From Ensifer adhaerens (GTDB taxonomy: Bacteria > Pseudomonadota > Alphaproteobacteria > Rhizobiales > Rhizobiaceae), in NCBI RefSeq assembly GCF_000697965.2, contig NZ_CP015882.1, forward strand, positions 930,001 to 994,000: a stretch of 64,000 nucleotides of DNA, written 5' to 3'. Below, one piece after another: positions 19,886 to 35,620 of the stretch. Every line of letters begins with the position of its first letter. Position 1 is the first letter of the stretch. Under the pieces are notes generated by a model. It was not told the DNA's origin. It saw only the letters and a program-made list of their open reading frames with translations, and ran no database searches. The position numbers and the translations under genes were made by a program.

Positions 19886-20157
19886 GGCCTTTCATTCTAC
19901 TCAATCACGATCCTGCCGGCGTCAAGGGTGGCGCCGGCCGCGCGCGTCAAGGCGCTCCGCCTAATAAAGCGATTTCGATTCCGCTTGGGCGTTCGAACGC
20001 GTTGGCATGCACGAAAGAACCGGCTTGTCGCGACCGGAGGGGCGGCCGAGAATGCGTCGACGGCTGGCTGACGTCGAGACGTCGGCATCCCTGGCGGTAC
20101 TGAGAGCAGGTTTCCGTTGGCCCATGCTGCAGACGGTCTCTGAACTGCGTTCTCGGG

Positions 20158-20811
20158 TCAGGCCTTCCCGCTCTCAATCGCACGTGCCCATCCCGCGGCT
20201 CGCTCGGCCGAGGCCGCCAGAACCGGTTTGGGCGCCTTGTACCACTCGTCCTTTGGGATCTCGCGCTTCTCGCGGACGAAGTCGATGGCGCGCTCCAATG
20301 TTTCGAATTGATCAGGCAGCGTCAAATGCAGGAACAGCGACACGACGACGACCGAGCGCGATCGGCCACCGCGGCAGTTGACGAGCACACCGCCACGTTC
20401 GCGCCTGGGATAGGACGGCTTTTCGGGTAGGACCTGCTCCAGGGCCGCTCGCAGGATGTAGTGCGCAGCCAGCATTTGCGTGTCCGGGTTCCCATCCCCG
20501 TCGATAAGCCCGATCTTGTAGTAGCGGATTTCGCCCGGTCCATGGATGCTGTTGCGGTGATCCGAGACGAGCTTCGGCTGGTCGACGAAATTGAAGTCCA
20601 GATTGACCGCGCAATTGACGACCGTCGTGATCCCGCTCTTGCGCAGGAGTTCGAGGTCGCTCGCACCTTCCTTGCCGGAAATGAAGATGTCGACGCCATA
20701 GGTCGGATGCTTCGGATACACGAGACTGAGCCTTGGCAATTCGCTGCTGGTCTTTTCCGTGGTTGAGGCATCGCTAAGATTGTCGAGCATGGTTTCCTCA
20801 TGGGCTTTCAT
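20158..20811 (-). CDS. dual-specificity / PTP-like CX5R phosphatase
   Basis: 217 aa from the ATG at 20811, whose ATGA overlaps the stop of the monophosphatase gene upstream, so translation is likely coupled. The P-loop NCRGGRSRS gives catalytic C146 and R152 (CX5R), with Asn where most PTPs have His. LIDGDGNPD (about 102-110) may supply the general-acid Asp. The fold family also includes cysteine phytases and lipid phosphatases. No signal peptide, so it is cytoplasmic. It ends the organophosphate ABC operon (27113 to 20158). A paralogue with the same P-loop is at 32352-32972. The substrate is inferred to be a small phosphorylated metabolite rather than protein. Confidence 0.82.
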   Translation of the reverse strand: MKAHEETMLDNLSDASTTEKTSSELPRLSLVYPKHPTYGVDIFISGKEGASDLELLRKSGITTVVNCAVNLDFNFVDQPKLVSDHRNSIHGPGEIRYYKIGLIDGDGNPDTQMLAAHYILRAALEQVLPEKPSYPRRERGGVLVNCRGGRSRSVVVVSLFLHLTLPDQFETLERAIDFVREKREIPKDEWYKAPKPVLAASAERAAGWARAIESGKA

Positions 20812-21701
20812 GGCGACGGCGCCTTCGCGCTGCGCCCGGCAGAGATTGCGGCGGCGACACGGTTCAGGGTTGGATAGTCGCCACCCCGGCCATAGGCGAG
20901 ATACCCCGGGCAAAGGTAGTCGGCGGATCCTTCCGGCACTTTGCCAAGCGACAACGGCGCATAACGGCCGCCTGCGTTCTTCAGGATCAGCGTCGCTGCG
21001 GCCACATCCCAGGCGTTGACGCCAAAGCCCGCGGCCGCATCGACAAAACCCGCCGCCACATGGGCGATGCTCAAAGCTGCACTTCCAGGGCGACGCACGG
21101 TCGAGAAGGTTTCGACCAGATCACCGAGGCGGGCAAGTGCCTCGTTGCGGCCATCCAGGCGAAAGTCGCGCGAGACCGGGTAGCCGGTGATCAGCGTTGC
21201 CCGGCTTTCGTCACCGATGGCTTTGGAGGCAATGACCTTTCCATTGAGATAGGCACGCTCGACGTCGCTCGAAAACAGGAGATCGGCCACCGGGTCATAG
21301 ACGACCCCGGCCACAACCGATCCGCCTTCAACCGCCGCAATCGATATGCACCAGAAGGCAAGTCCTCGTGCGAAGTTCGCGGTCCCGTCGATCGGATCGA
21401 CATACCATTGGATGTCGCCCTCACCGACCTGCCCGCCCTCTTCGCCAAGCATCGCCGAATTCGGCTCGTGCGCGAAGATGTAGTCGCGGATGGATGCCTC
21501 GGCTTGCCTGTCGTAGACCGTCACGACGTCGTGGAGATCGCGCTTGTAGTCGACGACCATTTCCGAGCGAAACGCAGCGAGCAAGGGGCCGGCGGCCGAG
21601 CGGGCCGCACCTTCGGCGATCGTCATCAGTCGCCGCGAGTAGTCGCGCATGGCGTCTCTATCGGATTGGTTACGGCTCGTGGCGAGATTGGCGTCGGTCA
21701 T
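20808..21701 (-). CDS. inositol monophosphatase family phosphatase (arm 1)
   Basis: 297 aa from the ATG at 21701, preceded by AGGAAGAG. Metal-binding motifs of the IMPase/FBPase superfamily are intact: GEEGG at 86-90, DPIDGTANF at 102-110, and a C-terminal NAWDVAAA motif. The enzyme hydrolyses a phosphomonoester of a sugar or polyol with Mg2+. It follows the two binding-protein genes in the ABC operon and overlaps the CX5R phosphatase. A second family member is at 33029-33868. AccG of the agrocinopine catabolic system is, from memory, a related phosphatase working on an imported phosphodiester. Confidence 0.9.
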   Translation of the reverse strand: MTDANLATSRNQSDRDAMRDYSRRLMTIAEGAARSAAGPLLAAFRSEMVVDYKRDLHDVVTVYDRQAEASIRDYIFAHEPNSAMLGEEGGQVGEGDIQWYVDPIDGTANFARGLAFWCISIAAVEGGSVVAGVVYDPVADLLFSSDVERAYLNGKVIASKAIGDESRATLITGYPVSRDFRLDGRNEALARLGDLVETFSTVRRPGSAALSIAHVAAGFVDAAAGFGVNAWDVAAATLILKNAGGRYAPLSLGKVPEGSADYLCPGYLAYGRGGDYPTLNRVAAAISAGRSAKAPSP

Positions 21702-21726
21702 GCTCTCTTCCTGTTCATACTGGAAC

Positions 21727-21763
21727 GGCCGGCGCGACCTGTCCTCGTGAGGCCGCGCCGGCC
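21727..21763 (-). terminator. strong GC hairpin after the binding-protein gene
   Basis: GGCCGGCGCG (21727-21736) and CGCGCCGGCC (21754-21763) form a perfect 10-bp stem with a 17-base loop. It lies just after the stop of the first binding-protein gene and before the monophosphatase. There is no T-run, so it is more likely an mRNA-stabilising or partial-termination element that lets the binding protein be made in excess. Confidence 0.6.
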
Positions 21764-21769
21764 GGGATT

Positions 21770-22897
21770 TTACTTGCTGTAGTTCATGCGCCAGAAATCC
21801 TGCCACTCCTCGCGCCGGTCGAAATCGTCAAGCCCAGTGGCCGCGTCATAGGGAAAGAGGCGGTCCGCTACCTCCATGATCCCCGACGGTTCGTCTTGAG
21901 GCATCTTGATGTCGACATTGGTCGGCAGCTTGCCGTCCTTCATCTGGGGCGCGATGCCCTCTTCCGTCAGCACGTAGTGGATGAAGAGCTTCGCGGCATT
22001 CGGGCTCGCGGATTTCGAGGCGATCAGGCCGAGCTTGGTGTAGGTCCAGCCGACCCAGGGGGTCAGCTCCGTGCAGAGCCCGAGTTTGTAGCCTTTGCCT
22101 TCGTTATCACGGAACTTGGCGGAGCTCAGGAGCCCGAAAAAGGGCTCCTTCTGGCCGGCGGCGCCGACGGCTTCGGCAACCGGATCGTCGCCGTCCGTTA
22201 CCAGCGGGCCGTTTTGTGCCAGGGCCTTGATCCAGGCGGCCGCTGCACTTTTTTCAACGGTTTCGAGATCCTTGCCGAAGTGGACCTTGTAGGCCTCCTT
22301 CACGGCGTTGTCGGCATGCTTTTCCAACTGGTTGAACCAGTCGGTATAGGTGCTCTTGGTCAGGGGATCGACCAGCGCGATCTTGCCTTTCCATTTTGCC
22401 TCAGTCAGCTCCCAGATATTGCCGACCGGGCATTTGTCATAGGCCTCGGTGTTATAGGCCCAGACATTGGCATTGGTCGAAATCGCCAGCGGGTTCTGGA
22501 AGGCCGCCGGTATCTTCTCCTTCATGTCGCCGGGCAGATAGCTTTCGACGAAGCCCTGCGGCAGAAGCTGGGCGAGCGCTGCCGGCGCGTCGGTGATCAG
22601 GGCGACATCGCCCTGGACGTTGCCGGCCTGGGCTTCGCGGATGATCATCTCCAGCTGGCTGTTGGCCGAGACTTTGACGCCGGTCGCCTTCACCCCGTAT
22701 TTGGCGGTGAAGGCCTCGGCCATCTCGACGATCTTGCCGGTGCTGTCATAGACATTGATCGGCTTTTCTTTCTTCGCCGCCTCCACCAGCGCATTGAGAT
22801 CAAACGCCTCCTCGGCGTTTGCCTCGACGGCCAATGCGGCCGCAAGGGCGGCAAATACCGCCCCCATGATCATAACCCTGTTCTTACCTTTGCTCAT
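21770..22897 (-). CDS. ABC transporter substrate-binding protein (FbpA/AfuA-like), paralogue A
   Basis: 375 aa from the ATG at 22897, with GGGAGGGG upstream. Sec signal peptide to about residue 28 (hydrophobic core then VEANA-EEAF). The mature protein has the family-1/6 type binding fold (INVYDSTGKIVEMAEAF near the N-terminus, then NVWAYNTEAYDKCP). Relatives bind Fe3+, 2-aminoethylphosphonate or hexose phosphates. The cluster is full of phosphatases, so a phosphorylated substrate fits better than iron, and no iron-ligand Tyr pair is evident. About half identical by eye to the paralogue at 22939-24075. Confidence 0.88.
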   Translation of the reverse strand: MSKGKNRVMIMGAVFAALAAALAVEANAEEAFDLNALVEAAKKEKPINVYDSTGKIVEMAEAFTAKYGVKATGVKVSANSQLEMIIREAQAGNVQGDVALITDAPAALAQLLPQGFVESYLPGDMKEKIPAAFQNPLAISTNANVWAYNTEAYDKCPVGNIWELTEAKWKGKIALVDPLTKSTYTDWFNQLEKHADNAVKEAYKVHFGKDLETVEKSAAAAWIKALAQNGPLVTDGDDPVAEAVGAAGQKEPFFGLLSSAKFRDNEGKGYKLGLCTELTPWVGWTYTKLGLIASKSASPNAAKLFIHYVLTEEGIAPQMKDGKLPTNVDIKMPQDEPSGIMEVADRLFPYDAATGLDDFDRREEWQDFWRMNYSK

Positions 22898-22938
22898 GGT
22901 TTCCCCTCCCAAGGAGACCGTTTCACATGTTCAGGCGA

Positions 22939-24075
22939 TTACTTCTGGTAGCTGAGCCGCCAGAGGTCCTGCCAGGTCTCGCGCGCGTCCCAGTCGTCGA
23001 GGCTCGTTGCCATCTGGTAGGGCATGACCTGATCAAGAACGGCGCCGATGCCCGACGGCTCGTCTGCGGGCAGCGAAACGTCCTTGTTGGTCGACATTTT
23101 TCCGTCTTCTGCCTGCGGCGCGATGCCTTCGGCGGTCATCACGTAGTGGATGAAGAGCTTTGAGGCGTTCGGGCTGTTGGTGCCCTTGGTGATCAGCCCG
23201 ACGCCCGGATACATCCAGCCGAGCCAGGGTTTCAGGTCCTTGCAAAGGCCGAGCTTCATGCCCTTTTCGGCATTGTCGCGGAACTTTGCCGAGCTCATCA
23301 GCCCCATGAAGGGTTGCGACTGACCCGGCGCGCCGACGGCATCAGCAGCGGCCGCATCGGCGTCCGTCAGCAAGGGAGCGTTGGCAGCGAGCGCCTTGAC
23401 CCAGGCGGCCGTCGCACTGCCGTCGTCGGTTTCGAGATCCTTCCCGTAAAGCTCTTTATAGGCGGCCGCCACTTTGTCGTCGCCGTGCTTGGCCATCTGG
23501 TTGAACCAGTCGACATAGGATGGCTTGCCGAGCGGATCCTGCATGGCGACCTTGCCTTTCCACTCAGGTCCCGTCAGCTGCCAGATGTTGCTGACCGGGC
23601 ACTTGTCGAAGAGCTCGGTGTTGTAGGCCCAGACATTGGCGCTGGTAACGACGGTCAGCGGGTCCTGATACTCAGTGGGGATGTTGGCTGCGAGATCCGG
23701 CGGCAGCCAGCTTTCGGCAAAGCCCTGCGGGATGAGTTGCGCCATCGCGGCCGGTGCGTCGCTGATGATCGAGACATCGCCCTGGATGTTGTTGGCACGG
23801 GCCTCGCGAATGATCATCTCAAGCTGGGCCGTCGCCTTGACCTTGGAGCCCTCGGCGCCGACGCCATATTTCTCGGCAAAGGCCTTGGCCATTTCGACGA
23901 TTTTGCCGGTGCTGTCATAAACCGTAATCGGAGGTTCCTTGCGCGCGGCCTCGATCAGCGCGTTCAGGTCGAACGGCTCTTGTGCCAGCGCCGGTCCGGC
24001 GAAGGCGACGATGGTCGTTGCCAGCAGCGCGCGCCTGATTGCACGGTGCGTCCTTTCAGTCCTTAGAAATTGCAT
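22939..24075 (-). CDS. ABC transporter substrate-binding protein (FbpA/AfuA-like), paralogue B
   Basis: 378 aa from the ATG at 24075 (GGGAGGAA upstream). The signal peptide ends in GPALA-QEPF. The mature protein begins FDLNALIEAARKEPPITVYD and shares long conserved blocks with paralogue A, including YDSTGKIVEMA, NVWAYNTE, KCPV.NIW and LSSAKFRDN-like sequence. It lies between the ATPase gene and paralogue A with 41 bases to the latter. Two binding proteins feeding a single permease suggest two related ligands or a duplicated receptor under divergence. Confidence 0.88.
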   Translation of the reverse strand: MQFLRTERTHRAIRRALLATTIVAFAGPALAQEPFDLNALIEAARKEPPITVYDSTGKIVEMAKAFAEKYGVGAEGSKVKATAQLEMIIREARANNIQGDVSIISDAPAAMAQLIPQGFAESWLPPDLAANIPTEYQDPLTVVTSANVWAYNTELFDKCPVSNIWQLTGPEWKGKVAMQDPLGKPSYVDWFNQMAKHGDDKVAAAYKELYGKDLETDDGSATAAWVKALAANAPLLTDADAAAADAVGAPGQSQPFMGLMSSAKFRDNAEKGMKLGLCKDLKPWLGWMYPGVGLITKGTNSPNASKLFIHYVMTAEGIAPQAEDGKMSTNKDVSLPADEPSGIGAVLDQVMPYQMATSLDDWDARETWQDLWRLSYQK

Positions 24076-24129
24076 CGTCTGTTCCTCCCGCAGATTATGT
24101 TTCGATTTGTCGTTCGGCACTGAAGCGCC

Positions 24130-25263
24130 TTAGTTCAGCGTGGACTTGCGCAGCAGCGCGTCCGCTTCGGCGATCCGCTGGCCGTCCTTGTTAAAAACGT
24201 GCAGCGCCTCAGGCGGCGCAAAGAACGAAACCCTCGTTCCGGTCTCGACGCGCGGCAGGGCATTGGTCGTCAAGAACAGCGTGTCGCTGCCGTTCCTGAG
24301 CTCCAGGATCCAGCTGCCGCCGGTCGGCAGGACGCCTGTCACCGTCATTTCGCCGGAGAAGCTGCCGGCCGGCACATCGTTGGTTTTGACCGAATAGCCG
24401 ATCGCTTCCGGTCGGATGCCGATCGAGCCAATGCCGCGCAACGACGGGTGGCGCGTGCCAAGATAGGCCTCGGCTGCGCGCGACAGCTCAGAGGCGGCGG
24501 CCGATCCGAAGTTCAGGATGTTGATCGGCGGGCTACCGACGAATTCCGCGACGAAGCGATTGGCCGGGCGATCATAGATATCGTTGGGCGTGCCCATCTG
24601 CTGCAGCGTGCCCTCGTTCATGACGGCGATCGTCGTTGCCAGCGTCATTGCCTCCCACTGGTCGTGAGTGACGAAGACGATGGTCGTCTTGAACTCCTTG
24701 TGGATGCGTTTGAGCTCGGCGCGCATCTCGAGCCGGAGCCGGGCGTCGAGGTTCGACAGCGGCTCGTCGAGCAACAGAACGCCCGGATTGACCGCCAGCA
24801 TGCGGGCGAGCGCCACGCGCTGCTGCTGGCCGCCCGAGAGTTGCGACGGGTAGCGGTCGCGGTACTTGGCGATGTCGAGCGCCTGCATCACTTTCTCGAC
24901 GCGCATTTCACGCTCTTCCTTCGGCAGTTTGCGCAGCCTCAGACCGAAGTCGGTGTTGCGTTCGATTGTCAGGTGCGGCCAGAGCGCGTAACTCTGGAAT
25001 ACCAACCCCATCTCACGCTTTTCCGGCGGGATGAACACGCCTGCCCTGACCGAGTCGACCACCCGCTCTCCGATGCGGATCTCGCCGTCCGAGAGGTTTT
25101 CGAGGCCGGCGATCATGCGCAGCGTCGTGGTCTTGCCGCAGCCAGAGGGTCCAAGAAGGCACATGAACTCGCCGTCGCGGATTTCGAGATCGAGGTTCGA
25201 GACGGCATTGGCGGAATTGACGCCGTAGTTCTTCTGGGCGCCGCTGAGATTGATGGTGGGCAT
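24130..25263 (-). CDS. ABC transporter ATP-binding protein (FbpC/PotA-like)
   Basis: 377 aa from the ATG at 25263, whose ATGA overlaps the permease stop; the much longer open frame upstream is antisense-like read-through of the permease gene. Walker A GPSGCGKTTT at 38-47, signature LSGGQ at 142-146, Walker B LLLDEP at 163-168, and a C-terminal TOBE-like regulatory domain of about 130 residues. It energises the fused permease encoded just upstream. All catalytic motifs are intact. Confidence 0.93.
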   Translation of the reverse strand: MPTINLSGAQKNYGVNSANAVSNLDLEIRDGEFMCLLGPSGCGKTTTLRMIAGLENLSDGEIRIGERVVDSVRAGVFIPPEKREMGLVFQSYALWPHLTIERNTDFGLRLRKLPKEEREMRVEKVMQALDIAKYRDRYPSQLSGGQQQRVALARMLAVNPGVLLLDEPLSNLDARLRLEMRAELKRIHKEFKTTIVFVTHDQWEAMTLATTIAVMNEGTLQQMGTPNDIYDRPANRFVAEFVGSPPINILNFGSAAASELSRAAEAYLGTRHPSLRGIGSIGIRPEAIGYSVKTNDVPAGSFSGEMTVTGVLPTGGSWILELRNGSDTLFLTTNALPRVETGTRVSFFAPPEALHVFNKDGQRIAEADALLRKSTLN

Positions 25264-27113
25264 CAGCTTCCGAGTCCTTCTGCGAGATTGGTCTTGGTCA
25301 GCTTCTGGGCTGCCAGGGTTCCGAGATAGGCGATCGCCGCGATGATCAGCACGACGGCATTGGCGGCTTGCGTGTAGTGGTAGTCGACGAGCCGGAGCGA
25401 ATAGGTGGTCAGAACATCGGTGCTCGGCACGGCGAGGATGACGAAGAGGCTCAGGCCCTTGATGCCCGAGATGAAGGGCAGCAGCACGCCTGTTACCAGC
25501 GAGCCCTTCTGGATTGGAATGACGATCAACATCATCCGCCGGAACCAGCCGGCGCCGGAAATCTGGGCTGCCTCTTCCGGATCCTTGCCAAGCTGGGTCA
25601 TGGCCGAGATACCGGCGCGCGAGGCGTAAGGCATCTGGTCGGCGATCAGCGCCAGGACCAGGATGGTGACGGTACCATAGAGGGCCGGCATCGGTCCGCG
25701 TGGCACGGCGAAGAGCGACAGATAGGCGGCGGCAAAGGCGATACCCGGCACCAGATAGGGCAAGAAGGTGACCTGCCGCAGATAGACCGACAGGACCTTC
25801 ACCGGCGTGCGGATGACCACATAGCCAACAAGAAGTCCGAGAATGCCCGAGGTCAAGGACGCAAGGCCGACGATGACAAGCGTGTTTTTTGCAGCCGCCC
25901 ATAGATCGGGGCTTAAGAGGACCCCGGTCTGCAGTGCCACCGTGTGGAGATCACGGCCGATCCAGTAGTCGAGCGTGAAATTGTCGAGCGTGAACTGCGC
26001 CGGCAGCTTCATGATGGTGGAGAGGAACAGGGTCAGAAGCGGCAGTCCGACGCTCAAGAGAAAGATAAGTGCGGCAAAACCGGTCGCCGGCAGGCGGTAC
26101 TTGCCGAGCCGGCTCTGGCGGTTCATCGAACCCTTCGAGCCAACAGTAACGAAGCGCCGGGCTTCACGAACAAGACGCGCATCGATCATCAGGGTGACGA
26201 TGCCGATCAGCATGATCGAGGCCGCGACGACACCGGCAACGCCGGTCTGGCGCGACGCGATGCTGCGAAAGAGCGAGGTGGAAAGCACTTCGAACCTGAC
26301 CGGCAGGCCGAGCACATAGGGCACGCCAAACTCGCCGAGGCACTTGGCGAAGATCAGCACCATCGAGGACAGAAGTGCGGGACGCATCAGCGGCAGGATG
26401 ATCTGCATCGCCACCTGGTAGCGCTTGGCTCCAAGGATACGGGCGGAATCTTCGAGCTGGGAATCGAAGCGACGAAGGGCAGAGCCAAACAGCAGGATGA
26501 CGAAAGGCGTATAATGTAGCGCCAGGATCACGATGATCGGGAAGCGCCCATAGGCGACCCAGTCGGGCGGCGTCAGCCCCATGGCCTCGAACCAGCCCGG
26601 CTGGCCGCCGACGGTGCGGTTCTTGAAGAGCGTTGTCCAGGCAAGCGCAAAGGTCCAGGCCGGCAGCATGTAGGGCACGATCAGCGCTGTTGCGAACCAG
26701 CGCCGTCCGAACATGTCTGTCCGGCTGATCAACCAGGCGAGCACTGTACCGATCAACAAAGACAGGCTGATCGCTCCGAGCGCGACCGATAGCGTGTTGA
26801 AGAGCGGCCGCCAGAAAAGATCGACCGAGACCGGCGACAGGAAGGCTCGATCAAGGTAGTAGAGCGTAAGCTCACCAAAGTCCTTGCCGAGCCGCCGCTC
26901 GTGGCCGAATTGGACGCGCACGGAATCGAGCACGATCGAGATGATCGGCACGACGATGAGATAGGTAAAGAGAAGTGCCGTCAGGACGCCGATCAGCGTC
27001 GTCGGCTCCCGCGACGCGACCTTCATCCGATAGCGCCAGCGCTGCCATGCCGTCGGCGCCATTGCGCTGCCGGGCAATGTTGCCGCTTTGGCTGTCTCAC
27101 TCAATAAGGCCAT
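25263..27113 (-). CDS. ABC transporter permease, fused two-domain (FbpB/ThiP-type)
   Basis: 616 aa from the ATG at 27113, with AGGGGAAG upstream. Two tandem BPD_transp_1 domains of about 6 helices each. EAA-type loops are visible in both halves (EDSARILGAKRYQVAMQIILP and, later, EEAAQISGAGWFRRMMLIVIP). A single polypeptide therefore supplies the whole transmembrane dimer, as in FbpB, AfuB and ThiP. First gene of the operon permease-ATPase-binding proteins B and A-monophosphatase-CX5R phosphatase (27113 to 20158). Confidence 0.93.
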   Translation of the reverse strand: MALLSETAKAATLPGSAMAPTAWQRWRYRMKVASREPTTLIGVLTALLFTYLIVVPIISIVLDSVRVQFGHERRLGKDFGELTLYYLDRAFLSPVSVDLFWRPLFNTLSVALGAISLSLLIGTVLAWLISRTDMFGRRWFATALIVPYMLPAWTFALAWTTLFKNRTVGGQPGWFEAMGLTPPDWVAYGRFPIIVILALHYTPFVILLFGSALRRFDSQLEDSARILGAKRYQVAMQIILPLMRPALLSSMVLIFAKCLGEFGVPYVLGLPVRFEVLSTSLFRSIASRQTGVAGVVAASIMLIGIVTLMIDARLVREARRFVTVGSKGSMNRQSRLGKYRLPATGFAALIFLLSVGLPLLTLFLSTIMKLPAQFTLDNFTLDYWIGRDLHTVALQTGVLLSPDLWAAAKNTLVIVGLASLTSGILGLLVGYVVIRTPVKVLSVYLRQVTFLPYLVPGIAFAAAYLSLFAVPRGPMPALYGTVTILVLALIADQMPYASRAGISAMTQLGKDPEEAAQISGAGWFRRMMLIVIPIQKGSLVTGVLLPFISGIKGLSLFVILAVPSTDVLTTYSLRLVDYHYTQAANAVVLIIAAIAYLGTLAAQKLTKTNLAEGLGS

Positions 27114-27698
27114 GCTCTTCCCCTTGGAACTCAACATGCGCTGCCTGCGCCGGCGATCGATGCCTGGCGGAACTTTCAAAGTGCCAACGGGGAATAGAAA
27201 TCAGCCGCCAGGGCGTGGCGCTGACCTACGCAAGAAGCCGCTCAATGACGCAAAAGGCGCGGCTGTCGGTTACTCAATCCTCCCCGTTCGCAGGGCAGGC
27301 GCAAGCGCTTGCCAGATGTCGGCGCAAGCTCCTCAACCGCGCCGCCATCACCACGAACATAGACAGAACAAAAATTCCAATCCAGCTCTGTCTATGGAAT
27401 GTATGATCCAATGGTGAGGCGCCGTTGTCAACAAAAAAATGCACACGTGCGCAATGATATAAGCCGTTGTTTTTGATGACTCTTTTGTGACAATGATGTA
27501 TTGTTTTTGGAACACGTGATCATTGAGGTTGGGCGAATGACTTCAGCGGGGAGAAACAGCCGCCATAGACGGAGCGATGGCGACCGTTCACCGGCATCGT
27601 CGGCTGGTTCACCGAGCGGGTAGGCTCGAACTTTTTCGTTGGAATGGGGCTGCTTTTGTGGCCCTGATGAAAAGCATCTGATTCTGCAGGAGAAAGGC
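27114..27698. promoter_or_regulatory. divergent control region, ABC operon / LacI gene, with operator-like dyads
   Basis: About 585 bases between the permease start (minus) and the LacI-type regulator start (plus). TGCACACGTGCGCA at 27440-27453 and a second CACGTG core in AACACGTGATCATT (27511-27524) are spaced about 70 bases. An ACAAT-N5-ATTGT dyad lies at 27490-27504. The first site differs at only two positions from the arms of the perfect palindrome at 33883-33914. LacI-type repressors bind such CpG-centred dyads, so autoregulation and control of the ABC operon are likely. The region 27114-27430 shows no gene. Confidence 0.5.
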
Positions 27699-28688
27699 AT
27701 GGCGAGGGGCTTTGTGACGGCCGAAGAGGTTGCAAAACGCGCGGGCGTCTCACGCTCGGCGGTCTCGCGAACCTTTACGCCCGGAGCCAGTGTATCCCAG
27801 GCTGTGCGGCGCAAGGTTCTCAAAGCCGCCCGGGAGCTCGGTTACCGGGTCAACCGGCTGGCGCAGGGACTGAACAACGACCGCTCCAATCTCATCGGGG
27901 TCGTCGGTGCCAATCTCAGCGCACCCTTCCATGCAAAACAGCTCGATCTCTTGAGCATCGGCCTGTTGCGTCGCGGTCTGCAATGCCTGTTGCTCAACGC
28001 CGCGGATGCGCGAAAGGATATCGCGCCGCTGATCGAGCTACTGTTCGAGTTCCGGGCGCAAGCGATCATCGTTCTTTCCGGAGAGCCGCCGGAATCGATC
28101 GTCGACCAGTGCATTGCCAACGGCGTGCGCCTGATCCTGATCAACCAGAAAATCGATCGCACCGATACCAGCATGGTGCTGAGCGACGATTCCCGCGGTG
28201 CGGACCTTGCAGCACTGCGCCTGATCGAGGCGGGCTGCAAGAAGGTTGCGGTGATCTCGAGTGGCAGCCAAACCCCTGCTCAGGTGCGCCGCACCACTGC
28301 GTTCAAAAAGAAAATGGCGACCGCCGGGGTCGAGGTGGTCGCCTGGTCGGGCGGTACCACGAGTTATGAAAGCGGTTACCAGGCTGGCTGCGAGGTGCTC
28401 GTCGACGAGGCGATCGACGGCGCGTTTTGCGTTACCGATCTCTTGGCTCTCGGCTTTCTCGACGCTGCCCGCACCGAAATGCACCGCCGCGTGCCGGCCG
28501 ATCTTTCCGTCGTCGGCTTCGACGATATTCCGCAGGCAGGGTGGAAGAGCTACGAACTCACCACCGTTGCGCAGTCCTTCTCCGCTCTGACGGAGCATGT
28601 TCTCGAAGCGCTGGAAGCCGACGAGATGGAAACGCGACTTCAGGTCGTTCCCGTCACGATGGTCGAGCGCAAGACCGCCCGACGCTAG
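27699..28688 (+). CDS. LacI family transcriptional regulator
   Basis: 329 aa from the ATG at 27699 with AGGAGA upstream. The N-terminal LacI HTH (residues 5-28, TAEEVAKRAGVSRSAVSRTF) and hinge helix (residues about 50-60) precede a periplasmic-binding-like effector domain (LIGVVGANLSAPFHAKQLDLL, then SVVGFDDIPQAGW). The gene sits between the two arms of the organophosphate cluster, divergent from the ABC operon and convergent with the Na/Pi gene (10 bases apart). It most likely senses the imported compound or its dephosphorylated product. Confidence 0.92.
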   Translation: MARGFVTAEEVAKRAGVSRSAVSRTFTPGASVSQAVRRKVLKAARELGYRVNRLAQGLNNDRSNLIGVVGANLSAPFHAKQLDLLSIGLLRRGLQCLLLNAADARKDIAPLIELLFEFRAQAIIVLSGEPPESIVDQCIANGVRLILINQKIDRTDTSMVLSDDSRGADLAALRLIEAGCKKVAVISSGSQTPAQVRRTTAFKKKMATAGVEVVAWSGGTTSYESGYQAGCEVLVDEAIDGAFCVTDLLALGFLDAARTEMHRRVPADLSVVGFDDIPQAGWKSYELTTVAQSFSALTEHVLEALEADEMETRLQVVPVTMVERKTARR

Positions 28689-28698
28689 ACCGGAATGC

Positions 28699-30345
28699 TC
28701 AAGTGGCCGCCGGCCGGATACGGCTGTCGATCAACAACCCGCTCTGATCAAGGATGGGGTGCGCGACGGTTGCGATGTGTGCATTGATGCGTTTGAGATC
28801 GCGCAGCATGTCGAGATGGAGCGAGCTGGTTTCGATGCTTTCGGCGCGACCATCGCGCAGGCGCTGCAGATGCCGCTCAGCCGACTGCCGCTCCAGCCTG
28901 CGGACATCTTCCTTGGCTTCTACCAGGCGCCGCGCCATCGCGTTGTCACGCGTGGCAAACACGGCCTGGGCCATGCGCAGATTGTCGATCGTGATGGCGA
29001 AGAGACGCGACAGTTCCTCGTGGCCATCGGAGGAGAAAGCCAGGCCGCGGGCGATCTTCTTTGCAAGTTCGGCAAGGAGCCCCTTCTCGATGATGTCGCC
29101 GATATGCTCGAGGTTGATGGCATAGTCGACGATATCCATGGCGTGGCGGCGCTGTTCCTCGGCGATTTCGGACTGGCCGACGCGCGAGACGTAAACCTTG
29201 ATCTCGTGTTGCACGCGATCCACGCGCCCTTCAAGCGTGCTGATCGCAGCAAGCCTGGAAGGGTCCGTCTGCTGCAGGGCGTCGTTTGCTTCGACCAGCA
29301 TGCGCTCGACCAGGTCGCCGACGCCGAGCACTTCCCGACTTGCGCCGGCAAGCGCTGCGACCGGCGTGCCGAGATCGTTCTGTTCAAGGAAAAGCGGGCC
29401 GTCCGTCGCCTTTGGCTCGTCCGGCAACAGGCGCATGGTCAGGCGGGATAGAGGCCGAGCGAGGGGAGCCGCCAGAAGCGCCAGTGCGAGATTGAAGGCG
29501 AGATGCACATCAACCGGCAGATTGCCGCGTGAGACAGGCGACCAGTCGATATGCGGGGCGATGTACCCGGCGAGCGCCAGAGCGGCCAGGCAGCCGACGG
29601 CACGCACGATCAGGTTGCCAAGGGCAACCCGCCTGGCGCTCGCCGCAGCCTTGAATGTGGCTAGAACCGGGGGCACAGCACCGCCGAGATTGGCTCCCAG
29701 AACGAGGGCGATGAGCGGGCCGGTCGAAAGGCTGGCGGATGTTGCAAGAGACAGGATCAGCACCACGACTGTCAGGCTCGATGACGCGAGCGCTGCGAGT
29801 CCTGCCGAGATGACGAGCGCCACCGGCCAGGCATTGTCGAGCATCCCGAAGAAAGCCGAAAGGGCGGCAGAGGTCCGCAGCGGTTCGGTCGCACCGCCAA
29901 TCAGATGCAGCGATAGCAACATCAGCCCGATGCCGACGAGCGCTGCGCCTGATCCCTTGCGCGTGCTCGAGCTGCCGCGCCCGACAACGAAACCGCAAAG
30001 CAGCAAGAGCGGTGAGAGCCAGCCGAGCCCCAAAGCCACGATCCAGGCCGTCATCGCCGTGCCGACGTTGGCGCCGAGCAGCACGATCTGCGCCATGCGC
30101 GGCACGATGAGATCACGCTCGACGAAGGACGCGACCATGAGAGCGGTGGCGGTGGAGCTCTGGAGGGCGATGGTTGCGACGAGGCCACTGAAAAACGAAC
30201 GAAGACCGTCACGCGTCCCGGCCGCCAGTCCGGCTTTCAGACGGGCACCAAAAGCGCGTTGCATGCCGTCGCGAACCTGACCAAGGCCGAACAGGAGGAG
30301 CGCCACCGCGCCGAAGAGGTTGATGCTGACGATCGCAGTGCTCAT
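28699..30345 (-). CDS. Na/Pi cotransporter family protein with PhoU-like domain
   Basis: 548 aa from the ATG at 30345 (GGGGAGGGG upstream). The N-terminal half has two inverted PNaS repeats with the QSSTA motif (about 62-66) and a degenerate second copy (SSSLTVVV). The C-terminal half (about 330-530) is an all-helical PhoU-like domain. Relatives such as YjbB export phosphate when it is in excess, while eukaryotic members import it. At the end of an operon of phosphatases the inferred job is to dispose of phosphate freed in the cytoplasm. Confidence 0.88.
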   Translation of the reverse strand: MSTAIVSINLFGAVALLLFGLGQVRDGMQRAFGARLKAGLAAGTRDGLRSFFSGLVATIALQSSTATALMVASFVERDLIVPRMAQIVLLGANVGTAMTAWIVALGLGWLSPLLLLCGFVVGRGSSSTRKGSGAALVGIGLMLLSLHLIGGATEPLRTSAALSAFFGMLDNAWPVALVISAGLAALASSSLTVVVLILSLATSASLSTGPLIALVLGANLGGAVPPVLATFKAAASARRVALGNLIVRAVGCLAALALAGYIAPHIDWSPVSRGNLPVDVHLAFNLALALLAAPLARPLSRLTMRLLPDEPKATDGPLFLEQNDLGTPVAALAGASREVLGVGDLVERMLVEANDALQQTDPSRLAAISTLEGRVDRVQHEIKVYVSRVGQSEIAEEQRRHAMDIVDYAINLEHIGDIIEKGLLAELAKKIARGLAFSSDGHEELSRLFAITIDNLRMAQAVFATRDNAMARRLVEAKEDVRRLERQSAERHLQRLRDGRAESIETSSLHLDMLRDLKRINAHIATVAHPILDQSGLLIDSRIRPAAT

Positions 30346-30365
30346 GGCCCCCTCCCCAATGCTGC

Positions 30366-30656
30366 TTATTGCCGGCCGCGCAGCAACTCCGCTCGAAAGA
30401 GCTGCTGAAAGGATGCATAGGTCTCAAAGCCGAGGTCGCTGACGAGCCGCATGACTGTCGTCGTCGAGACACCGCTGCGCACGGCCACTTCCCGTGCGCT
30501 CGCAAAGGCGACGTCGTACGGATGGGCAAGCACGAACTTGGCCACTTCCAGGCGCCCACCCTTCAGATGACGTCGGCCCAGACGGCAAGATTCCCGCAAC
30601 TCGATGAAAGTCGCCGGCGGCGCGGAGGAAGAGGCCGTGGAGAGCAACTGGTCCAT
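30366..30656 (-). CDS. HTH-only RpiR/MurR-type regulator
   Basis: 96 aa containing only the RpiR HTH: EVAKFVLAHPYDVAFASAREVAVRSGVSTTTVMRLVSDLGFETYASF is split across residues about 37-83. Normal RpiR proteins are 280-300 aa and carry a SIS domain that binds phosphosugars; here the gene stops after the HTH. No SIS-like sequence follows, because the next gene downstream is the Na/Pi transporter. The start is 2 bases from the metallophosphoesterase stop. It could act as a constitutive DNA-binding protein or compete with a full-length RpiR. Confidence 0.8.
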   Translation of the reverse strand: MDQLLSTASSSAPPATFIELRESCRLGRRHLKGGRLEVAKFVLAHPYDVAFASAREVAVRSGVSTTTVMRLVSDLGFETYASFQQLFRAELLRGRQ

Positions 30657-30658
30657 GG

Positions 30659-32359
30659 TCAGGCAGCCTCTTCCGTGTCGGAGGTGCTCTCGATGCGGAT
30701 GTGCAGGCTTCCCGCTTCGGCACGATCGAGGAAGGCGTCGAAGGCCCCGAAGAAGATCGCCAGGAAGCCTGATGTCGATCCGTCCCAGCCGGTCCCGGGC
30801 GGACGGCCGAAGTGTTTGGCGAGCAGGCGATAAAGCGCGCGCCGCCGCTCAGGTATCTTGTCAAGCGCAAGGACGCCGGCCTGGCGCAGGCAATACCAAT
30901 CGGCGATCACCTCGATCATGTCGAGGCTGGCGGCGTCCTCAGAGATGGCGATCGCTCCTTGCCCGGAAGCGCTCGTCATGGCGCCGGCGTCGGGCATCAA
31001 CTTGCAGACCGCAGCGATCGAAAGCCCGGATATTTCGTTGACGACATCTCCGGGCCATTCCTTCGGAAAATAGCGATGCTGGACCAGGGCACGCTTGTGT
31101 GCCTTCAGGAAGGAACCGTAATCCGCCGCGGCAAAGGCTGGGTCCGGATATTCGCCGGCTCGCGCCGCTTCGCGACGATAGGCGCGCAGCACGCGTGGAT
31201 CGACGGCCATCGCGGACAGTTCGACGGTTTCGATGGACGACGCCGATTGAGACGGTTCGACGATCTTGAAGGCCGGCGGAAAGGCCACGAGCGACGGCAC
31301 GGCGACATTGATCAGCGAGCGGCAGCCGCGCGCGCGGCGCGTAACGCCTTCGACATGCAGGTGCCCGCTAAAATGCAGCGTCATGCCGGCGGTCATCAGT
31401 GCATCTGCGACCGCCTGCTGTGGTGTCCTGCGGGCAATATTGGTCTCGCCGAAGAGAACGCTTTCGGCTCCCGTTGCGCCATCGAAGGGATCGAGCACCG
31501 GATAATGCGAGAATGCGAGCAGCGTTTTTCCGAGTTTCGTTGCGCGCGCGGACACGTCGGCAATCCAGTCGACGATGAACGGTTTCAGCCTGATAAGCGC
31601 GTTCCAGCCCGCGCCGGTGCTGTCGACGAAAGCGGCTTCATCACCCTCCTCAAACAGGCCGTCGCGTGGTTCGAAGACGTTGGCGTCGATCATCAGCAGC
31701 CAGAGACCCGGCTCGGGCTCGACCAGATAGGAGGCATCCATCAGCCGGTAGCAATTCCGGCCGTCCGGAGACGAGACCGGGTAGAGCCGATCCTCGACGC
31801 GGTCAGACGCCCCGAACGGGGTTTCCCAATGAAGATAGTCCGGCCGTCGGAAGTACCCATGGGTAGCCACGGGGGCAAGGCCCGTCGGATATCCCTCGCA
31901 ATACATGCGCGGCGTTGCGTGGCTGCCGGGGGCTGCCTTTCCTATGTCGCTCGTGACGAGGACCCTCACGTCGTTCCGATCAAGAAATTGTTTGGTGTGG
32001 TGTCGCCCCTTGGGCCCGAAGATGTCGTGGTTGCCCGGAAGCGCATAAAAGCGCGTGCCATGGGCGCTCTCGTGCCCATCAAGAATGGTGCGCACGCGCG
32101 CCGTTGTCTGTCTTTGCCCGTCGTCCGTGTAGTCGCCCAAAAGGACGACGTGACGGATGCCGCGGCGCGCGACCTCCGCCAAGGCCTCGTCCAGCGCTTT
32201 GGCACTTTCGTTGAAGACGCGGGTGGATTCGCGCGTGTCGGCCCAGCTTCTGACGGCCAGTTTTTCGCCGTCGATCTCTATCCGCGGGAACTCGAAATCG
32301 CCTTCAAGATCATGGAAATGGGCGTCGGCGATGATGGCGATCCGAGGCAAATCAGACAT
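30659..32359 (-). CDS. metallophosphoesterase (calcineurin-like)
   Basis: 566 aa with the five-block binuclear-metal signature: D12/H14 (IADAHF), GDYTDD at 75-80, GNHD at 109-112, an FSHYP His, and GHLH near residue 328. Long for the family: a C-terminal extension of about 180 residues has no name. No signal peptide is visible, so it acts in the cytoplasm. It overlaps the CX5R phosphatase gene by 8 bases and precedes the HTH-only RpiR gene. A phosphodiesterase acting before the two phosphomonoesterases would fit the cluster; this is inference. Confidence 0.88.
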   Translation of the reverse strand: MSDLPRIAIIADAHFHDLEGDFEFPRIEIDGEKLAVRSWADTRESTRVFNESAKALDEALAEVARRGIRHVVLLGDYTDDGQRQTTARVRTILDGHESAHGTRFYALPGNHDIFGPKGRHHTKQFLDRNDVRVLVTSDIGKAAPGSHATPRMYCEGYPTGLAPVATHGYFRRPDYLHWETPFGASDRVEDRLYPVSSPDGRNCYRLMDASYLVEPEPGLWLLMIDANVFEPRDGLFEEGDEAAFVDSTGAGWNALIRLKPFIVDWIADVSARATKLGKTLLAFSHYPVLDPFDGATGAESVLFGETNIARRTPQQAVADALMTAGMTLHFSGHLHVEGVTRRARGCRSLINVAVPSLVAFPPAFKIVEPSQSASSIETVELSAMAVDPRVLRAYRREAARAGEYPDPAFAAADYGSFLKAHKRALVQHRYFPKEWPGDVVNEISGLSIAAVCKLMPDAGAMTSASGQGAIAISEDAASLDMIEVIADWYCLRQAGVLALDKIPERRRALYRLLAKHFGRPPGTGWDGSTSGFLAIFFGAFDAFLDRAEAGSLHIRIESTSDTEEAA

Positions 32360-32972
32360 CGGCCTTCACCTCCAGACGGGAGGCCTCGACGAGGTCGATC
32401 CAGGCCGAAGCGCGGCGCGCTGCCTCATAGAGCATGGGCTTCGGCGTCTCGAACCATTCATCCGGCCGCAGTTCGCGATGCTCGCGGATGTGGGCGACGG
32501 CCGCGTCGAGTGTGGGAAACAGATGCGGCTGCTGCTTGTGCAGGAACAGCGCCACCAGCGACACCGAGCGGCTGCGTCCGCCGCGGCAATTGACGAGGAT
32601 GTTGCCGCCATCGGCGAAGGGGTAGGTTGCGCGCTTCGGCATCGTCTGGCGTAGCGCACCGTCGAGAATGTAATAGGCACCGAGCATCATCGTGTCGGGG
32701 CTGCCATCACCGTCGATCATGCCGAGCTTGTAATAGCGGACGGCCGCATAGCCGCTTGCACAAAGATCATCATTGATGCTGACTTCTTCTTCGCGCACGA
32801 GGTTGATGTCCAGGTTGATCGCGCAATTGACGACAATGGAGATCCCGTGACGCTTGAGCAGGTCCAGGTCACGCGCGCCGTCACTGCCGCCGATATAGAG
32901 ATCGGCGCTGTGGGGCCCGAGTTCTCTGGCGATCAGACTGATAGCGGGCCGGGTGTAGACCGGTGCGTCCAT
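32352..32972 (-). CDS. dual-specificity / PTP-like CX5R phosphatase, paralogue (arm 2)
   Basis: 206 aa. The P-loop NCRGGRSRS (C129, R135) and the LGMIDGDGSPD segment match the arm 1 enzyme at 20158-20811, as do YIL(D/R)GAL..., and DEWFETPKP versus DEWYKAPKP. The two are clear paralogues, about 45 percent alike by eye. Its cytoplasmic location and pairing with an inositol-monophosphatase-family gene are repeated in both arms. The gene lies 56 bases from the monophosphatase upstream and is probably in the same transcript. Confidence 0.82.
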   Translation of the reverse strand: MDAPVYTRPAISLIARELGPHSADLYIGGSDGARDLDLLKRHGISIVVNCAINLDINLVREEEVSINDDLCASGYAAVRYYKLGMIDGDGSPDTMMLGAYYILDGALRQTMPKRATYPFADGGNILVNCRGGRSRSVSLVALFLHKQQPHLFPTLDAAVAHIREHRELRPDEWFETPKPMLYEAARRASAWIDLVEASRLEVKADV

Positions 32973-33028
32973 TGGATTTCCCCTTGTGTATGCGAACGGG
33001 TGGCATGCGTGTTCAGGCTACCGCGGTT

Positions 33029-33868
33029 TCAGGCCAGCTGGAGCCTGGCGGCTTGCTCCCTTTTTTGGACCGGGATGCCTGAAGCCACACTTACGCCGCC
33101 GGCAATCGCCGGCGTCGATGCGAGCACCGGCCCGCCGTCGAGCAGGCTGCCTATTTCCATGAAGGGACACACGGCGCCGCCCGCCTCGGCAACGAGCAAC
33201 AGTCCGGCAAGGCAATCCCACGAGTTCATGTGCAGCTCGACATAGGCGTCCGAGCGCCCATCGGCGACGTAAGCGAGCGCAAGTGCCCCCGAAGCGCCGC
33301 GCCGCACATTGGCGCCCTTCTCCAGCATCTGCCGCATCGTCTCCAGATAGGTCTCGTCCGGCACCCGCCGCGACCAGCCCATTTCGACCGACGCGGCATC
33401 GAAGGTCGCCGTCGACGAGACCGTGATGACCTTGCCGTTGAGCGTTGCACCTTCTCCCCGGCGGCAGAAATAAAGTTCGTCGTGGGCCGGATTGTAGATT
33501 GCGCCGATCTCTGCGTGTCCGTGTTCGACATAGGTTATGGAGATGCAGAAGTGCGGGATTCCGCGCGCGAAGTTTGCCGTGCCGTCGACGGGATCGACGA
33601 CCCAGACGCGATCGGCAACGGTCCCGCCGCCCTCCTCGCCCAGGAACGCATCGGCCGGAAAATGGGTGGCAATTGCGTCGCGAATATGGGCCTCGGAGGC
33701 CGCATCGGTTTCCGTCAGAAAATCCTGCGGGCCCTTTAGGGAAAAGCCACGCTCGGCACTTGCCTTGAAGCCGTCGAGCACCAGAGCGCCGGCAGAGCGA
33801 ATGACATCCCGACACAACAGGGCCCGCCCCGAAAGGTCGTTCGAATAGCGCGGCTTGTGATCGTTCAT
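33029..33868 (-). CDS. inositol monophosphatase family phosphatase (arm 2)
   Basis: 279 aa from the ATG at 33868, which has GGAGT 7 bases upstream; the open frame to 34114 runs through the operator and is not used. GEEGG at 77-81 and DPVDGTANF at 92-100 give the metal-binding core, and NSWDCLAGLLLVAEAGG supplies the third motif. Paralogue of the arm 1 enzyme at 20808-21701. First gene of the arm 2 operon (33868 to 28699), which is divergent from the MFS gene. Confidence 0.9.
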   Translation of the reverse strand: MNDHKPRYSNDLSGRALLCRDVIRSAGALVLDGFKASAERGFSLKGPQDFLTETDAASEAHIRDAIATHFPADAFLGEEGGGTVADRVWVVDPVDGTANFARGIPHFCISITYVEHGHAEIGAIYNPAHDELYFCRRGEGATLNGKVITVSSTATFDAASVEMGWSRRVPDETYLETMRQMLEKGANVRRGASGALALAYVADGRSDAYVELHMNSWDCLAGLLLVAEAGGAVCPFMEIGSLLDGGPVLASTPAIAGGVSVASGIPVQKREQAARLQLA

Positions 33869-33882
33869 CGGCGATACTCCAT

Positions 33883-33914
33883 TGCACACGCGTGCATATT
33901 TGCACGCGTGTGCA
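33883..33914. promoter_or_regulatory. perfect inverted repeat, probable operator
   Basis: Arms TGCACACGCGTGCA (33883-33896) and TGCACGCGTGTGCA (33901-33914) are exact reverse complements with the 4-base spacer TATT. The repeat lies 15 bases before the monophosphatase start and in front of the divergent MFS gene. Each arm is itself nearly palindromic with a central CpG, so it may hold two repressor dimers. A close relative is at 27440-27453 in the other control region of the cluster. Confidence 0.72.
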
Positions 33915-34070
33915 TGTCGCGCAAGTCGAAATTGCCGGTCCGTGCCAGGTGCCCGGAAGATTGGTCGATCCTCGCGGCCGCACTCAGCCGGACATCTGCG
34001 GCATTTCTGCAATATCCAAGCAGGCGCGGTCGACGTAGTGTCCACACGTCGAATCTCAAGGTAGGGTCGA

Positions 34071-35384
34071 ATGACGACGATCACGATACAGGAAGCGCTC
34101 GACCGGGCGGGCACGGGCCCCTATCAGCGGCGCCTGATGGGCATATTTGGCCTGGTTTGGACGGCCGACGCCATGCAGGTGCTCGCCGTCGGGTTCACCG
34201 CCGCCTCCATTGCCGCAACATTCGGGCTGACGGTTCCCCAAGCGCTGCAGACGGGCACGTTGTTTTTCCTGGGCATGCTGATCGGCGCCGTCGGCTTCGG
34301 CAGGCTTGCCGATCGGATCGGCCGGCGCCGGGTCCTGATCGTAACCGTTGCCTGCGACGCGGTCTTCGGCATTCTGTCGATCTTCGCTCCGAATTTCGTG
34401 GTCCTGCTTGTCCTGCGCTTCCTCACCGGCGCTGCGGTCGGCGGCACACTTCCCGTCGATTATGCGATGATGTCGGAATTCCTGCCGGCGCGCAGCCGCG
34501 GGCGATGGCTGGTCATGCTCGAAGGCTTCTGGGCCGTGGGCACGCTGATCGTGGCACTGGCGGCATGGCTCATCGCTCTTGCCGGCCTTACGGACGGATG
34601 GCGCTACATCTTTGCCGTCACGGCCATTCCGGCAGTCATTGGCGTCGGACTACGCTTTCTCGTGCCGGAATCGCCGCTTTACCTGTTGCGCGCGGGCAAG
34701 GCGGAGGCGGCCAAGGCGATCGTCGATCGAATGCTGGCAGCCAACGCTCGACCGCAACTCGAGCCGACCGTATCGATCGCCCTGCCTGTACCGACCGCCG
34801 ATATCAGTATCTTTTCGAAGGACTTGCGTCGCCGCAGCCTTCTGATCCTTTCGGTCTGGTTCCTCGTCTCGGTCTCCTACTATGGCGTCTTTACCTGGAT
34901 GCCGCCGCGGCTTGCGGGAGAAGGCTTCGGCTTCGTGCGTGGCTATGGGTTCCTCGTTCTCATCGCTCTGGCGCAGATCCCGGGCTATGCGCTTGCCGCC
35001 TACGGCGTCGAGAAGTGGGGACGGCGCCCGACGCTGGTCGGTTTCTGCCTGCTCTCCGCCCTCAGTTGCCTGTTGTTCGTCGTGGCGGATGCGGCCTTGG
35101 TCGTTGCTGCTGCGCTCCTGATCATGAGCTTTGCACTGCTCGGCACATGGGGCGCACTCTATGCCTATACGCCGGAACTCTATCCGACCGCCTCGCGCGC
35201 GACCGGCATGGGGGCGGCCGGCGGCATGGCTCGGCTCGGTGGCCTGCTTGCGCCTTCGCTCATCGGATTGCTGGTGGCGAAGGGCTTCGGCCTGGCGATC
35301 GGCACCTTTGCAGGCTTGCTGCTTGTGGCGGCGATCGCCGCTGCGATGATCGATGCGGAAACCCGTAAGGTATCGCTGACCTGA
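34071..35384 (+). CDS. MFS transporter (sugar/acid porter-like)
   Basis: 437 aa with 12 predicted helices. It shows the MFS loop-2 motif GRLADRIGRRR, LRFLTGAAVGGTLPVDYAM in helix 4, and PESPLYL after helix 6, which are typical of the sugar porter / SV2-like or aromatic-acid families. The start at 34071 has AAGGTAGGG upstream. It is divergent from arm 2 across the palindrome at 33883-33914, so it belongs to the same regulon. It may import a related non-phosphorylated compound or export a product. Confidence 0.88.
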   Translation: MTTITIQEALDRAGTGPYQRRLMGIFGLVWTADAMQVLAVGFTAASIAATFGLTVPQALQTGTLFFLGMLIGAVGFGRLADRIGRRRVLIVTVACDAVFGILSIFAPNFVVLLVLRFLTGAAVGGTLPVDYAMMSEFLPARSRGRWLVMLEGFWAVGTLIVALAAWLIALAGLTDGWRYIFAVTAIPAVIGVGLRFLVPESPLYLLRAGKAEAAKAIVDRMLAANARPQLEPTVSIALPVPTADISIFSKDLRRRSLLILSVWFLVSVSYYGVFTWMPPRLAGEGFGFVRGYGFLVLIALAQIPGYALAAYGVEKWGRRPTLVGFCLLSALSCLLFVVADAALVVAAALLIMSFALLGTWGALYAYTPELYPTASRATGMGAAGGMARLGGLLAPSLIGLLVAKGFGLAIGTFAGLLLVAAIAAAMIDAETRKVSLT

Positions 35385-35590
35385 TACGGTGCATTCTTTT
35401 CAGGGGCAGTAGCTCACAGTTTGGAAAACTGAACTGCGTTTCAACGCGTTAGCGCCTCCTTTCCCTGTGAACAACCTGTGGACCGGCTGCGGACAAGGCC
35501 GGAAGTCGGGTTGCCGGCTGTTCGATCGTAAAAGCGCTCGTAAAATGGCTGTGCGGTCAAGCTCACGACCGTTAGTGTAGCAACTATCTC

Positions 35591-35620
35591 ATCGGGGCCG
35601 GCACGTGTGCCGGTCCCGAT
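35591..35620. repeat. long palindrome
   Basis: ATCGGG-G-CCGGCAC is followed after GT by GTGCCGG-T-CCCGAT, giving a stem of up to 14 pairs with one G-T wobble. No T-run follows (TGTATG), so it is not a standard terminator for the MFS gene 200 bases upstream. It could be an operator or a structural transcript end. Confidence 0.5.

Follow-up and report, generated by a model that had tools for sequence, protein, structure and literature searches.

A LacI-linked importer and phosphatase gene set of Ensifer adhaerens, possibly for the use of inositol phosphates

The region between positions 20158 and 35384 of a 64,000-nucleotide stretch of Ensifer adhaerens DNA (contig NZ_CP015882.1, positions 930,001 to 994,000; hereafter the window) comprises thirteen intact genes, most of them in two co-directional minus-strand arms flanking the regulatory gene lacI. 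Its importer and phosphatase genes look like one widely conserved, co-regulated system, here called the cassette, and it is probable that they form an organophosphate importer system of some kind. Judged from the gene families and their neighbours, the cassette may serve the catabolism of a phosphorylated polyol under LacI control, with inositol phosphates as the most likely main cargo. This more specific reading is preferred here, tentatively, because it explains together the presence of inositol-monophosphatase family enzymes (IMPases), the linkage to inositol (iol) genes and an importer resembling those for sugar phosphates.

Gene content and organization

On the minus strand, the first arm comprises perm, atp, sbp1, sbp2, impA, and dspA, and the second impB, dspB, mpe, a short frame rpiR, and napi, in that order; lacI lies on the plus strand between them, and a gene of the major facilitator superfamily (MFS) is divergent from impB. 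Gene families were assigned with Pfam and NCBIfam profile scans, which confirmed the gene set of a preliminary description made from the sequence alone (a fused ATP-binding cassette (ABC) importer, two binding proteins, phosphatases, and LacI in two arms). In their aligned parts, the paralogous proteins are 62% (sbp pair), 47% (dsp pair), and 38% (imp pair) identical. All 15,227 bases match the E. adhaerens plasmid record NZ_CP121310.1 (1,459,375 bases) at 100.0%, and the region sits on that plasmid or a near copy of it. The features are as follows.

20158–20811, minus: dspA, CX5R dual-specificity-type phosphatase, 217 residues
20808–21701, minus: impA, IMPase, 297 residues (PF00459, 163.2 bits), with a 4-base overlap with the dspA start
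21770–22897, minus: sbp2, periplasmic binding protein, 375 residues (PF13531, 62.3 bits)
22939–24075, minus: sbp1, periplasmic binding protein of the FbpA/AfuA fold by profile and structure model, 378 residues
24130–25263, minus: atp, ABC ATPase, its ATG at 25263 overlapping the perm stop
25263–27113, minus: perm, fused double permease, 616 residues, with two BPD_transp_1 stretches; start at 27113 with a ribosome site
27403–27431, minus: promoter-like hexamers facing perm (TTGACA, 17 bases, GATCAT), a consensus match only, not commoner in the region than in shuffles
27440–27453, no strand: predicted LacI operator TGCACACGTGCGCA, between perm and lacI
27699–28688, plus: lacI, LacI-family regulator, predicted repressor of both arms from the family match and operator footprint
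28699–30345, minus: napi, sodium/phosphate (Na/Pi) carrier with a PhoU domain (TIGR01013, 341.7 against a cut-off of 306.15), accessory
30366–30656, minus: rpiR, 96-residue RpiR-like protein with a helix-turn-helix only, accessory
30659–32359, minus: mpe, calcineurin-like metallophosphoesterase, 566 residues (PF00149, 38.0 bits)
32352–32972, minus: dspB, CX5R dual-specificity-type phosphatase by CX5R loop and fold, 206 residues
33029–33868, minus: impB, IMPase (PF00459, 187.5 bits), ATG at 33868 proposed, GTG at 33889 also possible
33883–33896, no strand: predicted LacI operator 1 upstream of impB, the operator pair ending 15 bases before the impB ATG
33901–33914, no strand: predicted LacI operator 2, upstream of impB and of the divergent MFS gene
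34071–35384, plus: MFS carrier, divergent from impB, accessory

Conservation and spread of the cassette

A search of genome contigs with an alignment of the CX5R phosphatase gave 307 encoding stretches, the best 80 of which were taken with flanks of up to 10 kb; some of these loci are shortened by contig ends, and 66 have full flanks. Among the 80 loci, an IMPase and the permease are each found in 74, a binding protein in 73, lacI in 76, and the metallophosphoesterase in 69 (64, 63, 63, 64, and 59, respectively, of the 66 with full flanks). In 71 of the 80 the IMPase, a binding protein, and the permease are all present, and 64 have the metallophosphoesterase and lacI as well. Going by record titles, the hosts are Rhizobiaceae, other Hyphomicrobiales, Rhodobacterales, and a few Rhodospirillales bins. 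The phosphatase, IMPase, and FbpA-like genes thus do co-occur elsewhere, and the 71 joint loci, with the shared operator described below, bear out the single importer-plus-phosphatase system proposed in the preliminary description. The MFS, RpiR, and Na/Pi genes, which it had included as integral parts, did not hold up as such: they are found in 3, 12, and 55 of the 80 loci (3, 12, and 47 of the 66) and are accessory.

Carriage is patchy. At E 1e-30, 10 of 297 genomes of the order are carriers, five of them strong, the genome studied here included, and a class-wide sample contained one carrier besides it, at the same place as locus L049. A one-family sample (394 genomes, E 1e-60) gave seven new carriers besides its centre. 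In all seven perm, atp, sbp, and dsp occur together, in five lacI lies beside the cassette (the sixth has only a 27% match about 5 kb off), and in four there is an IMPase, one of the other three cassettes being on a 6.9-kb contig. As the whole-genome searches score only the best first-look candidates, these carrier counts are lower bounds. In Sinorhizobium meliloti 1021 the cassette occupies positions 165,716–179,479 of pSymB in the order impB, dspB, mpe, napi, lacI, perm, atp, sbp1, sbp2, impA, dspA, together with a weak RpiR match and three operator sites.

Several variants were seen in passing. On pSymB of S. meliloti ABS7, a short MurR/RpiR-type regulator follows dspA (L088:26537–26905), to be compared with the one after mpe in the window. 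A gene for a HAD-family hydrolase is inserted beside the IMPase gene in four of the 80 loci (L073, L074, L078, L079) and in one further genome (L094:12283–13092), and a NUDIX hydrolase is encoded near the cassette in 10 of the 80 (e.g., L001:4741–5268), including Ensifer, Devosia, and Aminobacter. Three Agrobacterium loci (L031, L034, L044) keep dsp, mpe, and lacI, with no match for the permease and binding proteins; L034 and L044 have an unrelated ABC transporter, sugar-type by eye, close by.

LacI and its predicted operator

The palindrome TGCACACGTGCGCA between the arms has two near-copies upstream of impB. With one mismatch allowed, the pattern has seven matches in the window over the two strands, including a lone coding match at 32089, and none of 100 shuffles reached seven. 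In the whole genome of 7,267,502 bases the pattern TGCNCRCGYGNGCA is found in three places only, all at arm heads; a control pattern has one match on each strand. Since the pattern was written from these very sites, their presence is no test, and their being alone is. When the pattern was widened slightly and run over the 80 loci, 131 sites fell in the 101,857 bp that precede impB, perm, or lacI, against five in the remaining 1,461,504 bp; the 131 sites are not independent, as many loci are close relatives.

Where LacI is at least 60% identical (43 loci), the operator is found at impB in 42, the single exception having no impB match, and at perm in 33, whereas only six of the 33 loci with a more distant LacI have it; four loci lack a lacI match. 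The impB operators are mostly paired, 17–18 bases apart. In 14 loci the permease is a different one (35–45% identical), and those of them with a close LacI share the operator, even with permease identity down at about 39%; repressor and operator are thus retained while the importer changes. The two arms, described earlier as two operons around the LacI gene, are probably one regulon under LacI, which is predicted to bind the shared site. A Pho box, searched for by its consensus, gave one 3-mismatch match in the 64 kb, at 6712, against 3.6 expected, so that membership in the Pho regulon is not indicated.

Enzymes and importer

All the enzymes look active from their conserved residues. The CX5R phosphatases have the CX5R loop, the catalytic Asp, and the fold of dual-specificity phosphatases, and the Cys, Arg, and an Asp are kept in 40 of 40. 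ImpA carries DPIDGT and WD, and ImpB DPVDGT and WD; these are the metal motifs of the inositol-monophosphatase family, to which both belong. The family also holds histidinol-phosphatase and CysQ, and ImpA scores below every NCBIfam equivalog cut-off. In the metallophosphoesterase, the metal-motif residues Asp, His, and Asn are invariant in 30 of 30. Its nearest solved structure is Lmo2642, and its profile matches include Rv0805, Icc, and nucleases of the SbcD/Mre11 type; Lmo2642, Rv0805, and Icc are phosphodiesterases. No signal-type N-terminus was seen in any of the enzyme frames, read by eye, so dephosphorylation would take place inside the cell, which points to import with the phosphate still on, followed by its removal. 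No study of this bacterial dual-specificity-type phosphatase family was found in the open-licence literature.

The importer parts lie at some distance from named types. The nearest NCBIfam models for the ATPase are UgpC (359.1 against a cut-off of 432) and PhnT2 (327.2 against 457.7), and for the permease PhnU2 (138.8 against 593.25), while the two binding proteins have no NCBIfam match at E 0.001, neither to UgpB nor to PhnS. The structure model of Sbp1 has a mean predicted local distance difference test score (pLDDT) of 95.8 over its mature part; comparisons with Foldseek and VIA-align fail to separate iron, citrate, and sugar-phosphate binders for this structure.

Linkage to inositol genes and other organophosphate neighbours

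When the neighbours of the cassette were clustered all-against-all, iolC, D, E, B, and G turned up among the clusters; in one locus (L012) iolB, E, D, C, and G score over their NCBIfam cut-offs. Distances to iolC, glpK (glycerol kinase), and xylB (xylulokinase) were then read by eye in 50 of the 80 carrier genomes, with a cut-off of 15 kb from the phosphatase. iolC lies within this distance in eight of the 50 (4.1, 5.9, 7.2, 7.5, about 9, 10.2, 10.5, and 12.5 kb), which represent seven genera: Neorhizobium, Aureimonas, Cucumibacter, Alloyangia, Devosia (twice), Pelagibacterium, and Parasedimentitalea. Neither glpK nor xylB does so in any, each being present in 48 of the 50 genomes (Fisher p 0.006 with one control, 1e-4 with the two pooled, and 0.001 with all 80 loci as denominator). 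With mean genome sizes assumed, 0.37 of 50 or 0.59 of 80 would be expected by chance. In one genome (locus L090, the genome of L064), iolC-iolD-iolE-iolB-perm-atp-sbp-impA-impB lie on one strand. In the 30 loci left out, mostly of close Rhizobiaceae, no member of the iolC cluster is found within 10 kb, although partial end frames could be missed. Among the four other strong carriers of the order sample, iolC is at 9.4 kb in one (G242, outside the 50), at 28 kb in another, and far in two; it is near in none of the five weak carriers. The linkage is real but not universal; in the genomes that show it, it points to inositol phosphates, which the preliminary description named only as one of several test compounds. 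A genome survey of iol clusters (PMC9430895) has no occurrence of "phosphatase" or "ABC transporter" in its main text and hence does not treat this gene set. Of the remaining clusters, C20, considered as iolC in L028, was rejected as another PfkB-type kinase by eye, and C8 and C14 seem to be shadow frames antisense to atp and sbp.

Other neighbours handle organophosphates as well. An AfuA-like cluster (C10) is found near the cassette in 11 of the 80 loci; a single member was compared with AfuA, which it matches at E 1.5e-92 with the HD and CEGTGYE stretches conserved. In L017, the genes for two such members come first, with those for a permease, an ATPase, and a third IMPase, and impB-dspB-mpe-napi follow on the same strand. 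In Rhizobium sp. Root1203 (L045, 3151–10615), a CX5R phosphatase apart from the rest of the cassette follows a run comprising UgpB (512.5 against a cut-off of 411), two permease-type frames, UgpC, a glycerophosphodiester phosphodiesterase (GDPD), a DeoR-family regulator (GlpR-like, under the cut-off), and a HAD hydrolase. The pathways of the iol, AfuA-like, and ugp-GDPD neighbours all handle polyols or polyol phosphates, and the finding of AfuA-like and UgpB/UgpC-GDPD importers beside cassette enzymes strengthens the organophosphate theme of the preliminary description.

Proposed function and alternatives

In the proposed mechanism, Sbp1 and Sbp2 would capture a phosphorylated compound in the periplasm, and the fused permease with the ATPase would import it, phosphate still on. 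The cytoplasmic metallophosphoesterase may open any phosphodiester or cyclic phosphate, and the CX5R phosphatases with the two IMPases would take the phosphates off monoesters, in a presumed order of action, leaving a free polyol for the iol pathway. The Na/Pi carrier, where present, would balance the freed phosphate, its direction of transport being presumed, and LacI might sense the compound or a product and control both arms via one operator type.

Several observations weigh against inositol phosphates as the main cargo. The 50 genomes were picked after five iol-linked loci were known, all five being among the 50, which lowers confidence in this cargo a little. The linkage is weaker in the seven later carriers: iolC is within 15 kb in none and within 25 kb in two, at distances of 19 and 23 kb (0.09 expected by chance with mean genome sizes assumed), the one at 19 kb scoring as the shorter iolC type, and two of the seven lack iolC altogether. 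The same machine may carry another cargo, such as hexose, pentose, or heptose phosphates or a sugar bisphosphate, the iol neighbours being incidental in catabolic islands; this is rather unlikely, yet it draws on the AfuA-like cluster in 11 loci, ahead of the enzymes in L017, and on three carriers overall without iolC. Enzymes of the IMPase and HAD families act on many sugar phosphates, which also counts for it. According to the AfuABC study (PMC4546632), AfuA binds glucose 6-phosphate, fructose 6-phosphate, and sedoheptulose 7-phosphate. Against sugar phosphates stand the absence of xylB within 15 kb in the 50 genomes and the fact that, of the recurrent neighbour clusters identified, those of iol alone make up a complete catabolic pathway (C19, C22–C24, and C26 being among those not identified); C9, an RbsC-like permease, and C15, a short-chain dehydrogenase, both by eye, also recur. 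Uptake of glycerophosphodiesters derived from lipids, for instance glycerophosphoinositol or glycerophosphoglycerol, the metallophosphoesterase cutting the diester first, is less probable again. The matches of Mpe to Lmo2642, Rv0805, and Icc fit such a cargo, though nucleases of the SbcD/Mre11 kind match too; the phosphatase after the ugp-GDPD run in L045 also fits it, and glycerophosphoinositol would explain the iol linkage as well; glpK, however, is within 15 kb in none of the 50, and the metallophosphoesterase match is absent in seven of the 66 full-flank loci.

Import of iron or a metal-citrate, with the phosphatases as unrelated passengers, is very improbable. It follows the public annotation "iron ABC transporter permease" in S. 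meliloti ABS7 and the likeness of Sbp1 to HitA and MctA, its top structural neighbours, MctA being also its best PDB profile match. Against it, the enzymes and the importer share one operator type and are together in 71 of the 80 loci. Moreover, the iron binders FbpA and HitA use adjacent tyrosines as iron ligands, and the 37 close binding proteins have no adjacent conserved Tyr columns, YY occurring anywhere in only five of them. A signalling module with CX5R protein phosphatases beside a transporter by chance seems the most remote of these readings: the closest folds are human dual-specificity protein phosphatases, but human enzymes are abundant in the PDB, so that fold likeness says little, and the genes sit beside IMPases in the importer operon, together with a sugar-type repressor.

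Inositol phosphates are a major form of organic phosphorus in soil. If the preferred reading as an inositol-phosphate unit is right, the alphaproteobacteria that carry it would take up the ring with its phosphates and remove these in the cell, with an internal set of CX5R, IMPase, and metallophosphoesterase enzymes under a dedicated LacI switch, instead of secreting phytase and taking up free inositol. The cassette could then encode the first ABC importer known from bacteria, within the literature searched, that takes in inositol phosphates or glycerophosphoinositol intact, a possibility somewhat less likely than the reading itself. In the open-licence literature searched, neither this gene set nor any importer of inositol phosphates in bacteria was found described. 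The cassette also gives a substrate lead for a transporter group annotated as "iron" importers and for the family of bacterial dual-specificity-type phosphatases, and, as it is a compact, probably inducible system in the model legume symbiont S. meliloti 1021, a standard strain is at hand in which to test the question directly.

Flanking features

Outside the system lie genes for a Tad-like pilus protein (18691–19359, minus) and a sodium/proton exchanger (36002–37609, plus). A scan of 19300–36000 with Rfam at gathering scores gave one match, the ar15 small RNA (RF02345; 35793–35903, plus; 110.7 bits against a gathering score of 40), just past the MFS gene and outside the operons. This family takes in the AbcR RNAs, which target ABC-transporter messages, and the RNA may bear on the locus.

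Comparison with known systems

Among known importers of organophosphates, the UgpBAEC-UgpQ system combines ABC import with a phosphodiesterase, as proposed for the cassette, and in L045 the CX5R phosphatase comes after a run of such genes. The cassette differs in the family of its binding proteins and in the score of its ATPase, which is under the UgpC cut-off; its permease is fused, and no Pho box was found. The 2-aminoethylphosphonate importers PhnSTU and PhnS2T2U2 are close in that PhnU2 is nearest for the permease and PhnT2 second for the ATPase, but both scores are far under their cut-offs and the binding proteins have no PhnS match. The agrocinopine (acc) system, with an importer and an IMPase-like phosphatase, is alike by description, and the iol cluster is a neighbour within 15 kb in the eight genomes mentioned. 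The vitamin B6-phosphate importer of Actinobacillus has P5PA, an FbpA-fold organophosphate binder (structure 6wce). The binding protein studied here is 14% identical to it. That importer is not known to have a phosphatase set.

The AfuABC systems of Actinobacillus and Citrobacter share with the cassette an FbpA-fold binding protein and, as given in their description (PMC4546632), a phosphorylated carbohydrate cargo and an importer once taken for iron transport; the same source marks AfuA-type binding proteins by His205, Asp206, and Glu229. In contrast, the binding proteins of the cassette are only about 20% identical to AfuA, the cassette has LacI, a fused permease, and the phosphatase set, and AfuA-like proteins adjoin it as separate genes. 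By analogy, the cassette would work in the manner of AfuABC or of Ugp, with phosphatases added; it scores under the Ugp cut-offs. Every part belongs to a known family, and it is their LacI-linked assembly that appears new within the literature searched.

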